Of a stretch of 53,648 nucleotides of DNA, positions 51,072-53,648 are shown in pieces (position 1 is the first letter of the stretch; each line of letters starts with the position of its first letter). Source of the DNA: Paludibacteraceae bacterium (lineage in GTDB: Bacteria; Bacteroidota; Bacteroidia; Bacteroidales; Paludibacteraceae); contig JAKSKV010000021.1 in the NCBI GenBank assembly GCA_024401555.1, forward strand, positions 1 to 53,648, in the 5' to 3' direction. Both the position numbers and the translations under genes were made by a program. The notes beneath the pieces were generated by a model, which was not told the DNA's origin, did no database searches, and saw nothing but the letters and a program-made list of their open reading frames with translations.

Positions 51072-51101
51072 TACGTATATTTAAATTTTTTTGATGTGAA
51101 G

Positions 51102-51836
51102 ATGGACAATTTGGAAAATGTTTGTGAGTGTGAGTGTGGATGCACCGAGAGAGAAGTCAAATCCAGTTCTCTGTTCCAGCGTAAGATGTTGGGCATTTTG
51201 TGCGGTTTGTTAGCCCCTGCTTGCGTGCTGTTGGGCATGATCGGTTCGGACAACAACCTTGACGGATGGTATCTGAGTATCAGTGCGACCTATTATGCCT
51301 CCTCCAAGATATGTATGATCGGACTGCTCTTCTCAGCGGCAGTATTCTTCCTTAGTTATATTTTCGAGGGTTACGATTGGCGAGATAAGGCTATGTCTAT
51401 TATCCAAGCGGCAGGTTGCTTGGGTGTTGTCGTATTCCCTTGTAGGACGCCGGGAGCGCCCGAAACAGTGGGAATGTTCAATTTGCCGATAGACATAAGC
51501 AACATTGTTCACACTGCCTCTGCATGTGTTTTGTTCATCGCTTTCGGCGTGAACATCATGTTCCTCTTCACCCTAGGTCATGCGGATTCCAATGTGATGA
51601 AACGGAAGAGAAATCGTGTCTATCGTATTTGTGGATCCGTTATTTTCGCCTTCTGCATCATTCAGGCTTTGACCGCGACGCCTGTGTTTGATTGGGTTCC
51701 CGCATGGTTCCCGCTCACTTGGTTGAATGAGTTTGTGATGTTGGTGGCCTTTTCTGTGGCGTGGTTGGTGAAAGCCGAGATGTTCTCGTCGCTCAATGAT
51801 AAGAGCGACATGGATAGGAAGCCAGCGATGCGATAG
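51102..51836 (+). CDS. Multipass membrane protein with a cysteine-rich N-terminus
   Basis: A 244-residue protein with six predicted membrane helices, preceded by a cytoplasmic-looking N-terminus containing CECECGC (residues 7-13), possibly a metal site. The first extramembrane loop SDNNLDGWYLSISATYYASSK resembles DUF998-type membrane proteins, but I cannot assign a family with confidence. ATG at 51102 is chosen over GTG at 51096. It lies 30 bases after aguB with no terminator, so it may belong to the aguA-aguB operon; a role in polyamine or agmatine transport is only a guess. Confidence 0.75.
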   Translation: MDNLENVCECECGCTEREVKSSSLFQRKMLGILCGLLAPACVLLGMIGSDNNLDGWYLSISATYYASSKICMIGLLFSAAVFFLSYIFEGYDWRDKAMSIIQAAGCLGVVVFPCRTPGAPETVGMFNLPIDISNIVHTASACVLFIAFGVNIMFLFTLGHADSNVMKRKRNRVYRICGSVIFAFCIIQALTATPVFDWVPAWFPLTWLNEFVMLVAFSVAWLVKAEMFSSLNDKSDMDRKPAMR

Positions 51837-51889
51837 AGGTTTATCCGTTCGTTTTTGGTGAAAATCAATGTTTTTTACCATAAAAAAGT

Positions 51890-51920
51890 TTGGACATTAT
51901 TAAAAAACACTCTAAATTTG
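51890..51920 (+). promoter_or_regulatory. Promoter of the leuA leader
   Basis: TTTG (51890-51893), about 19 bases, then TAAATTTG (51913-51920). Transcription would start near 51927, about 45 bases before the leader ORF and 225 bases before leuA. Confidence 0.8.
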
Positions 51921-51972
51921 TGTCGTTTTAATGGAGGTTCCATAAAAGAACTGATTTGAAAAATTAGATTGT

Positions 51973-52023
51973 ATGAATTTTGTCATTAACATACACATTT
52001 TGTTGCTTCTCTTGCAAAAGTAA
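51973..52023 (+). CDS. Leader peptide of the leuA attenuator
   Basis: A 16-codon ORF encoding MNFVINIHILLLLLQK. It has five consecutive leucine codons (TTG TTG CTT CTC TTG, 52000-52014) preceded by one Val and three Ile codons, so 9 of 16 residues are branched-chain. The stop codon TAA (52021-52023) directly touches the 5' arm of the antiterminator. Ribosome stalling at the Leu run when charged tRNA-Leu is scarce would cover 52007-52013 and free 52024-52036. The peptide itself need not have a function. There is no strong Shine-Dalgarno, as is usual here. Confidence 0.82.
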   Translation: MNFVINIHILLLLLQK

Positions 52024-52074
52024 GGGAGAGTGGGAATGTGTATATCAATATTTTAAAGCCTTTCTCACTTTCCC
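52007..52074 (+). promoter_or_regulatory. Competing RNA helices of the leuA attenuator (regions 1, 2 and 3)
   Basis: Region 2, GGGAGAGTGGGAA (52024-52036), can pair over 13 bp (two G-T) with region 3, TTCTCACTTTCCC (52062-52074), forming an antiterminator. Region 3 overlaps the left arm and loop of the terminator, so the two are mutually exclusive. Region 1, TTCTCTT (52007-52013, inside the Leu codons), can pair with GGGAGAG (52024-52030, 7 bp with wobble pairs), which would block the antiterminator when translation does not stall. Confidence 0.8.
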
Positions 52075-52096
52075 AGTGTGAAAGGCTTTCTTTTTT
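52055..52096 (+). terminator. Rho-independent terminator of the leuA attenuator
   Basis: AAAGCCTTTC (52055-52064) pairs with GAAAGGCTTT (52080-52089) over 10 bp; CAC/GTG continue past one mismatch, with a 7-base loop. TTTCTTTTTT follows. It lies 55 bases before the leuA start, inside the leader. Confidence 0.9.
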
Positions 52097-52150
52097 GTTA
52101 TGACACGGTTCGGGATCTATAAAAAAGAGTAAAAATAAAACATAAAAGAT

Positions 52151-53648
52151 ATGAGCGATAGATTATTTATTTTTGACACTACGTTACGTGACGGTGAGCA
52201 AGTTCCTGGCTGTCAGTTAAATACGGTGGAAAAGATCCAGGTTGCCAAGCAGCTTGAGATTTTAGGTGTTGATGTGATTGAGGCGGGATTTCCTATTTCC
52301 AGTCCTGGTGATTTCAATTCAGTGATCGAGATTTCCAAGGCCGTTACATGGCCGACCATTTGCGCGTTGACCCGTGCAGTGGAGAAGGACATCGATGTGG
52401 CTGCGGATGCTTTGAAATTTGCGAAGCACAAGAGAATCCATACTGGTATCGGTACTTCCGAATCACATATCCGTTATAAGTTCAATTCCACACCGGAAGA
52501 GATCATCGAACGTGCGGTGGCTGCGGTAAAGTATGCGAAACGCTATGTCGAGGATGTGGAGTTCTACGCTGAGGATGCCGGCCGTACCGACAATGAATAC
52601 CTTGCCCGCGTGGTGGAGGCTGTTGTGAAGGCTGGTGCTACAGTCGTGAATATTCCTGATACGACAGGTTTCCGTATTCCTAACGAGTATGGAGAGAAAA
52701 TCAAATATTTGATGGAGCATGTGGATGGCTTGTCCGCAGGCAAGGCGATCCTCTCTACCCACTGCCACAATGACTTGGGTATGGCTACCGCCAATACTAT
52801 TGCAGGAGCGATCAACGGCGCCCGTCAGGTGGAGGTTACCATCAACGGTATCGGTGAGCGTGCGGGTAACACTTCCCTTGAGGAGGTGGCCATGATCTTT
52901 AAGACGCACCCTGATCTCGGCATCGAGACCAACATCAACACCACCAAGATTTACCAAACCAGCCGTATGGTTTCCAGCTTGATGAACATGCCGGTTCAAC
53001 CCAACAAGGCGATCGTTGGTAAGAACGCCTTCGCTCACTCCTCTGGCATCCACCAAGATGGTGTGTTGAAGAATGCGGGCACCTACGAGATCATGGATCC
53101 TAAGGAGGTGGGTATCGACGATAACGCTATCGTGTTGACAGCCCGTAGCGGACGCGCCGCTTTGAAGCACCGTCTCCATGTGTTAGGTGTCGAGATGGAG
53201 GGCGAGAAGCTCGACCGTACCTACCAGGAGTTCTTGAAGTTAGCGGATAAGAAGAAGGAGGTGAACGACGACGATATCCTCGTATTGGCTGGTGCCGACA
53301 GGGCGACTACCCACAGCATCAAGCTCGATTTCCTTCAAGTTACCAGTGGATTGGGTACTCGTCCGGTAGCAAGCATCGGCTTGGATATCGCAGGCGAGAA
53401 GTTCGAGGCTGCCGCTACCGGCAATGGACCAGTAGATGCTGCCATTAAAGCTTTGAAGGTGATCATCAAGCGAGAGATGGTGCTCAAGGAGTTCACCATC
53501 CAAGCAATCAACAAGGGAAGCGACGATGTGGCGAAGGTTCACATGCAGGTGGAGTTCGAGGGGTCGGTTTACTACGGATTCGGTGCGGGAACCGATATCG
53601 TGACCGCATCCGTCGAGGCGTACATCGATTGTATTAATAAGTTTAGAA
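52151..53648 (+). CDS. leuA: 2-isopropylmalate synthase (3' end beyond window)
   Basis: First enzyme of leucine synthesis, condensing 2-oxoisovalerate with acetyl-CoA. The frame is open from ATG at 52151 to the last base (499 codons), so only a few residues are likely missing. The DRE-TIM barrel carries [13 protein letters not shown] (7-19), metal-binding [11 protein letters not shown] (His204, His206) and the [14 protein letters not shown] segment. The C-terminal part from about residue 370 ([20 protein letters not shown], in part [11 protein letters not shown]) is the LeuA allosteric dimer domain that binds leucine. Expression is predicted to be controlled by the leader attenuator, adding transcriptional to allosteric feedback. 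Citramalate or homocitrate synthase is less likely given length and context. Confidence 0.93.

Follow-up and report, generated by a model that had tools for sequence, protein, structure and literature searches.

The stretch of DNA analysed here (the window) is contig JAKSKV010000021.1, positions 1-53,648, of a Paludibacteraceae bacterium (GCA_024401555.1). Close to its end, the 262 bases 5' of leuA, the 2-isopropylmalate synthase gene, very probably encode a ribosome-mediated transcription attenuator of the enteric type, which would control a leuA-leuC-leuD-citramalate synthase-like-leuB operon. On the best reading, this attenuator would sense leucine (Leu) and, in most relatives, isoleucine (Ile) too. 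The assignment draws on the anatomy of the leader, its conservation, the covariation of both its helices and the match between codon tracts and the pathways encoded downstream. The classical systems of this type are the attenuators of the enteric leu and ilv operons, leuL and ilvL of E. coli and Salmonella. A first-pass annotation of the window had proposed a leucine attenuator: enteric-type attenuation is supported, but "leucine" alone is too narrow a description, as the tracts of most relatives combine Ile and Leu codons.

Anatomy of the leader upstream of leuA

From the 5' end, the leader comprises a promoter, a short open reading frame (ORF), region 2, and a terminator hairpin followed by six T's (Table 1). 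The two promoter elements are separated by 20 nucleotides (nt) and follow the Bacteroidetes promoter consensus across 51889-51920, from which transcription would start at about 51925-51928. The ORF contains five Leu, one valine (Val) and three Ile codons, and no Shine-Dalgarno-like site is seen by eye at its start. The antiterminator helix 2:3 is formed by 13 contiguous pairs (52024-52036/52062-52074; 11 Watson-Crick and two G-U), and the terminator helix 3:4 by 10 pairs (52055-52064/52080-52089), one mismatch and three more pairs. Bases 52062-52068 are common to both helices, which are consequently mutually exclusive and share region 3. All these elements had been described in the first-pass annotation, from the promoter, the 16-codon ORF with its five Leu in a row and the stop codon abutting region 2, to the 13-bp antiterminator, the 10-bp terminator with its T-tract and the seven shared bases; each is found in the sequence as claimed, the terminator stem extending further past its mismatch.

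The RNA fold of 51960-52110 has a z-score of -5.15, and none of 200 shuffles is equally stable. Direct calculation gives -16.0 to -17.3 kcal/mol for the terminator hairpin; sequence and energy together point to an intrinsic terminator with a U-tract ahead of the first structural gene, and a short transcript is predicted to end near 52096. The short ORF itself, the conservation of its Leu/Ile codons and their match to the pathway suggest that its control codons correspond to the product of the operon.

Table 1. Features of the leuA leader and of the gene that follows it
Feature	Position	Strand	Basis
Promoter, Bacteroidetes-type: TTTG and TAAATTTG	51889-51892 and 51913-51920	+	Sequence
Leader peptide ORF MNFVINIHILLLLLQK, 16 codons	51973-52023	+	ATG 51973-51975, TAA 52021-52023
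Region 1, potential partner, if ribosome-free, of region 2 and its flanks (52020-52043)	51991-52015	+	Minimum-free-energy fold
Five consecutive Leu codons (TTG TTG CTT CTC TTG), putative stalling site	52000-52014	+	Sequence
Region 2, antiterminator 5' arm, adjoining the leader stop	52024-52036	+	Pairing with 52062-52074
Region 3, partner of region 2 (52062-52074) or of region 4 (52055-52064, 52066-52068)	52055-52074	+	
Region 4, terminator 3' arm	52076-52089	+	Pairing, covariation
T-tract of the predicted intrinsic terminator	52091-52096	+	Sequence
leuA (2-isopropylmalate synthase), opening the putatively attenuated operon	52151-53648, end on contig C7	+	NCBIfam

Conservation and covariation among relatives

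Regions upstream of leuA were collected from the 80 best named loci, from the genus (16 genomes, 15 with a leuA match) and from the family, where 104 of 150 genomes have a match and 25 new loci plus 38 additional stretches were retained, yielding 154 unique regions. A terminator of -12 kcal/mol or lower together with an antiterminator duplex of -16 kcal/mol or lower is present in 76 of the 154, as compared to 8 of 616 shuffles; at looser thresholds (-9 and -12 kcal/mol), the counts are 106/154 and 39/616. When structure is left unused, a strict Leu/Ile-rich ORF is found in 64 of 152 upstream regions; the corresponding counts are 50/1520 for shuffles and 10/152 for opposite strands. Of 93 leaders, 87 have a TAnnTTTG box 8-75 nt ahead of their ATG (182/1860 in shuffles). 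Within the genus, the attenuator unit is seen in 14 of the 15 genomes having leuA.

The leaders retained for codon analysis number 94, i.e. 103 rows minus nine removed by hand (L006, L007, L027, L050, L069, L071, L079, L122 and L124, among which L071 and L079 look genuine). Their reading frames were picked for the most Ile+Leu+Val, a rule that inflates the Leu/Ile totals and favours neither the Val contrast nor the CTA bias described below. The nearest relative (L086) has a leader peptide identical to that of the window, and the other leaders of the genus are Ile-rich with few Leu, e.g. MNFIININIIFIILLRSLRK. The first-pass annotation had suggested looking for conservation of the Leu run: the leaders are indeed Leu/Ile-rich, but of the 94, the window and L086 alone have five consecutive Leu, most others mixing Ile and Leu. 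The tract adjoining region 2 is pure Leu in the window's species and Ile plus Leu in most relatives.

The core sequence is strongly conserved, with the consensus GGAAGTGAG ... CCTTTCTCACTTCC, and the position of the leader stop ranges among relatives from before region 2 to well past it. To note, two loci of the family (L143 and L144) have regions 2, 3 and 4 far from the usual GGAAGTGAG core, reading GAATCGGGA with CGTCTCG or TGTCTCG. The predicted antiterminator and terminator are retained in both despite this divergence, a possible case of core replacement.

Covariation among aligned relatives, which had been put forward as a check of the two helices, was examined in two alignments, and both helices pass. 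Alignment A1 holds 58 of 72 non-redundant cores, each selected as possessing both helices. Two-sided changes affect nine of nine pairs of helix 2:3 (35 cells, 9.7 in shuffles) and 12 of 14 pairs of helix 3:4 (46 cells, 14.3 in shuffles). Since these rows were pre-selected for the helices they display, a covariance model, R1, was built that knows the terminator pairs only: trained on leuA leaders alone, it holds the sequence of region 2 and not its pairing. Searched against 198 genomes of the order, R1 finds a match in 87 at an expectation value (E) of 0.01 or lower. The 49 best hits, own genome excluded, comprise every hit listed with E up to 7.9e-5; 48 of them come from other families, and the remaining one (L192), from the window's family, coincides with L150 of the first set.

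Alignment A3 assembles 46 of these order hits, not chosen for 2:3 pairing and leaving out L230-L232; with three ilvD loci of the genus, its input amounted to 49 loci. It supersedes A2 (58 rows), which was set aside for its 12 extra rows, mostly antisense. In A3, 82.0% of the cells of helix 2:3 are paired and 30 cells are compensated (10.6 in shuffles). At every slide, the percentage paired drops to 37-63% and the covariation score from 0.187 to 0.053-0.123. Helix 3:4 reaches 93.7% paired, with 12 of 13 pairs changed on both sides and 47 cells as compared to 10.1, and no slide comes close.

Codon tracts and the genes that follow them

The classification of hits covered the 49 best, as distinct from weaker ones of E 1e-4 to 0.01. 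Gene labels come from the N-terminal sequence, or from NCBIfam for L193 and L230. Twenty-five hits precede leuA, 21 precede ilvD, one precedes a glutamate synthase gene (L230) and two no amino-acid gene. The latter two, L231 and L232, belong to the 20 weaker order hits and were rejected. At L230 (G215:C2, near 74477-74560), the glutamate synthase gene is preceded by a lysine/histidine-rich short ORF, MKTKHTSFANKHAYKHNKIVQ, whose codons have no obvious match to the product of that enzyme.

The codon tract of the leaders matches the pathway: Leu and Ile before leuA, with Val also before ilvD. The 25 leuA leaders (484 codons) contain 118 Leu, 110 Ile and 6 Val codons (1.2%), as compared to 84 Leu, 70 Ile and 76 Val (17.8%) in 20 ilvD leaders (426 codons, same frame rule), such as MKLLNTVLVVVVVVVLKNIE and MKALLSNIILVVVVVVLIIRSGVENGIA; L203, an ilvD locus by its sequence, was counted as "other" by the codon-comparison pattern. 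The Mann-Whitney value for the Val contrast is 6e-9, ignoring kinship. Valine is hardly part of the leuA leader signal. A second bias concerns the rare codon CTA, which accounts for 120 of 434 Leu codons in the 94 leuA leaders and for 27 of 1778 in the leuA genes of 69 of these loci; the counts for the leuA leaders among the model hits and for leuA and ilvD genes are 41 of 118 and 51 of 1507, respectively. This use of CUA among relatives resembles that of enteric leuL.

The composition of the operon may account for the Ile codons. In the window, leuA scores over the cut-offs of NF002086 (721.5 bits) and TIGR00973 (646.2 bits); the contig stops inside the gene, and there is an exact 55-nt overlap between its end and contig C7 of this genome. 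In the genus relative L100, leuA is followed by leuC, leuD, a second synthase and leuB. The best model for this second synthase is (R)-citramalate synthase NF042433 (620.9 bits, next 349.7; the cut-off of 950 is not reached), and its truncated counterpart in the window's own genome gives the same result over 402 residues (523.9 bits, next 313.9). We read it as citramalate-synthase-like. The citramalate route leads to a precursor of isoleucine, so that the operon would serve isoleucine as well as leucine synthesis. This would explain the Ile codons of the leaders and fits the mixed tract found in most relatives.

Beyond the order, R1 was searched against 296 genomes of the phylum, 10 of which have a hit at E 1e-4 or lower, seven of them outside the order. 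Five of these seven combine a leader of matching codon tract with the model's hairpin: one lies ahead of ilvD, another (MKRNKTYYFNFTINFWWFTINTLT, with WW) ahead of trpE, and three ahead of O-acetylhomoserine sulfhydrylase-like genes. Gene labels rest on NCBIfam for L249, L251 and L252 and on sequence likeness for L250 and L255. The two others, L253 and L254, are not attenuators. The leuA/ilvD core that R1 models is thus largely a trait of the order, the design itself being wider. The three sulfhydrylase loci (L250, L252 and L255) belong to another class of the phylum; their leaders are cysteine/methionine-rich, e.g. MKFSTRYTDCKPACYCMCMCMMCT, their hairpin lies 220-268 nt upstream of the gene, and they may represent a methionine/cysteine attenuator.

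In the window's genome, the upstream regions of five further gene families were inspected and four had leaders. The ilvD leader MIKRMNFIQLHINIVPYLVVVKRR (LVVV; L264, G000:C95:8400-17500) has a predicted terminator of -8.9 and antiterminator of -16.5 kcal/mol, energies that are not distinctive alone, as -8 and -8 are reached by 112 of 616 shuffles; ilvB-like and ilvN-like genes, labelled by eye, lie downstream. The hisG leader MFNTKHHHNHHHYQR (HHHNHHH; L265, G000:C111:5400-6100) possesses a promoter box and a predicted terminator and antiterminator of -19.0 and -14.9 kcal/mol. L258 and L260, from relatives in the genus, have the same or a nearly identical leader, and L262 has a variant, MVQFFHHIHHYFQR; L259, among the four hisG loci displayed, is coding sequence. 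The leader MTNKSLYYYFFFFYFMFS (YYYFFFFYF; L270, G000:C98, upstream of 12197) precedes pheA, the prephenate dehydratase gene, with predicted values of -18.0 and -15.5 kcal/mol. The leader MNHKYWWWQSSEQNVVRAFAHPC (WWW; L275, G000:C97:7100-9500, minus strand), with -22.6 and -14.1 kcal/mol, precedes trpB (TIGR00263, 578 bits), itself located upstream of trpE. Aspartokinase showed no such leader at the two genes read (L271 and L272) of the four matches in the genome. R1 did not flag the ilvD, hisG, pheA and trpB leaders of this genome, which therefore rest on gene context and codon tracts. The R1 hits of the same genome that rank under the leuA one (C77, C81, C2, C35, one antisense) were rejected, the four that were read not being attenuator-like.

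Proposed mechanism, alternatives and significance

Ribosome stalling, termination in vivo and a response to leucine would follow from this anatomy and its evolution. RNA polymerase would start near 51927, with a ribosome translating the 16-codon leader behind it. When charged transfer RNA (tRNA) for leucine is scarce, the ribosome would wait on Leu codons 10-13 and leave region 2 free to pair with region 3, and the polymerase would proceed into leuA. When leucine is ample, the ribosome would reach the stop codon and cover region 2, region 3 would pair with region 4, and transcription would end near 52096. Constrained folding is consistent with this scheme: with a ribosome at the stop codon, helix 2:3 is predicted at 0.0 and helix 3:4 at 0.97, and with a stall at Leu10-12 before region 4 is made, helix 2:3 is predicted at 0.99 (footprints of 12, 14 and 16 nt). 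In these predictions, a ribosome at the stop would thus block region 2, and one stalled at Leu10-12 would not.

Several observations weigh against this assignment. Once region 4 is made, a stall at Leu10-12 favours 3:4 (0.59-0.70) over 2:3 (0.23-0.35) in eight of nine settings; 2:3 is ahead (0.65-0.69) in the ninth and in a slightly different set-up, whose positions are shifted by one base and whose transcript is shorter by two. With the ribosome stalled at Leu14, 3:4 prevails at each of the three footprints (0.93-0.97), and helix 2:3 is predicted at 0.95 with no ribosome at all as long as region 4 is not yet made. The two helices are close in energy, so that 2:3 would have to form first for antitermination to occur; folding by itself does not decide between them when both can form. 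A generic terminator scan reported none at this hairpin (0.7 expected by chance), probably because it demands an ungapped stem and a loop of 3-8. Among relatives, 48 of the 154 leuA upstream regions fail the looser thresholds and 78 the stricter ones, 30 have no terminator/antiterminator candidate whatsoever, and one genome of the genus (G011, L099) has leuA without the attenuator unit. The protector hairpin 1:2 is weakly supported (mean z-score -0.75; 42/94 below -1), the three ilvD loci of the genus are unmatched by R1 at 1e-5, and the window's own leader is devoid of CTA codons. In A3, seven of nine pairs of helix 2:3 are changed on both sides, a count reached also by 11 of 500 shuffles and by one-column slides. 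Finally, the similar-looking ilvB and leuA leaders of Streptomyces coelicolor are described, on the basis of mutations, as not being classical attenuators (PMC1262725).

This Streptomyces precedent also lends substance to a different explanation, in which the leader is real and its RNA core is bound by a protein or acts on translation, the ORF being minor. The strong conservation of the core and the mobility of the leader stop would suit such a mechanism. Protein binding, however, does not need a codon tract that tracks the pathway, with Val before ilvD and Leu/Ile before leuA, nor histidine, phenylalanine/tyrosine and tryptophan tracts before his, phe and trp genes, and a predicted intrinsic terminator ~55 nt before leuA points to control of elongation. 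We consider this explanation improbable.

A still smaller chance is given to a leucine- or tRNA-binding RNA, i.e. a riboswitch or T-box, with an accidental ORF. Those classes also choose between terminator and antiterminator before amino-acid genes, but the window has no Rfam match at gathering score, neither a T-box nor an amino-acid riboswitch is among the 12 Rfam matches at E up to 5, and the ORF with its codon tract takes up a large part of the interval from promoter to region 2. Leu_leader, the enteric family (RF00512), is likewise absent at gathering score and among these 12 matches. A weak match to RF01859 Phe_leader spans 51967-52095 (27 bits, E 0.013), under the gathering score of 55 bits. 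The match to RF04177 BTnc201 (19.9 bits, gathering 105) is treated as chance rather than as the known Bacteroides small RNA, since BTnc201 is MasB, an intergenic small RNA (PMC10994844). That the hairpin, which sits between two same-strand genes, merely terminates the upstream gene (51096-51836), with ORF and antiterminator arising by chance, is scarcely credible, as a promoter intervenes and the unit in its entirety is found upstream of leuA in numerous families and covaries.

The enteric-type attenuator proposed for leuA differs from its enteric counterparts in several respects: besides the lack of a visible Shine-Dalgarno-like site, it matches no Rfam leader family at gathering score, the leuA leaders of relatives combine Ile with Leu and are nearly devoid of Val, and leuA and ilvD leaders have one RNA core in common. 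The loci of 18 relatives also lack an Rfam match at gathering score, and a plasmid collection searched with a 20-residue leader peptide returned no match.

As of 2010, leader-peptide systems were known only in Proteobacteria and Actinobacteria, before Firmicutes were added (PMC2965389). In Actinobacteria, a Leu-rich ORF also precedes leuA, and the LEU element has been described as pseudoknotted, with a base stem formed between the leucine codons and the leuA ribosome site (PMC1262725). In Bacteroides thetaiotaomicron, short ORFs in long 5' untranslated regions recall attenuation leaders (PMC7366714); the main text of that article does not mention "leuA" or "leucine". The first-pass annotation was aware of no characterised example in Bacteroidetes. 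To conclude that the phylum has none would be too strong: in 2021, amino-acid operons of Flavobacterium psychrophilum were reported to show "strong clues" of attenuation by leader peptides (PMC9723704). That case concerns the same phylum and type of control, with 5' elements before pheA and hisG conserved in the family; unlike the present analysis, the report, in the text considered here, names no leuA or ilvD element and has no covariation test. Among the papers listed, no title or abstract presents a leuA/ilvD attenuator in Bacteroidales, and none deals with whether the ribosome keeps pace with RNA polymerase in Bacteroidota. Earlier comparative work (Lopatovskaya 2010; Lyubetsky 2007) may have predicted attenuators in the phylum already.

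The leuA attenuator is a well-supported new case of a kind of attenuation already reported in the phylum. More broadly, Bacteroidales probably possess a full set of ribosome-sensing attenuators, with leu/ile, ilv, his, phe/tyr and trp leaders in one genome, among which leuA and ilvD share an inherited core with an exchangeable, pathway-matched codon tract. Such leaders would fill a gap in annotation, as Rfam recognised none of those scanned (the window and the 18 loci of relatives). If the assignment is right, the passage from Ile plus Leu to pure Leu in the window's lineage would be a recent change of the sensed signal. Bacteroidota are a dominant gut phylum in which Shine-Dalgarno sites are mostly lacking. 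Attenuation by a leader peptide requires a leading ribosome that does not fall behind RNA polymerase, and ribosomes would thus have to follow the polymerase closely in a phylum that mostly initiates without these sites. Five predicted attenuators in one genome, along with a covarying leuA/ilvD family across the order, would offer natural reporters of transcription-translation coupling, tRNA charging and amino-acid starvation in Bacteroidota.
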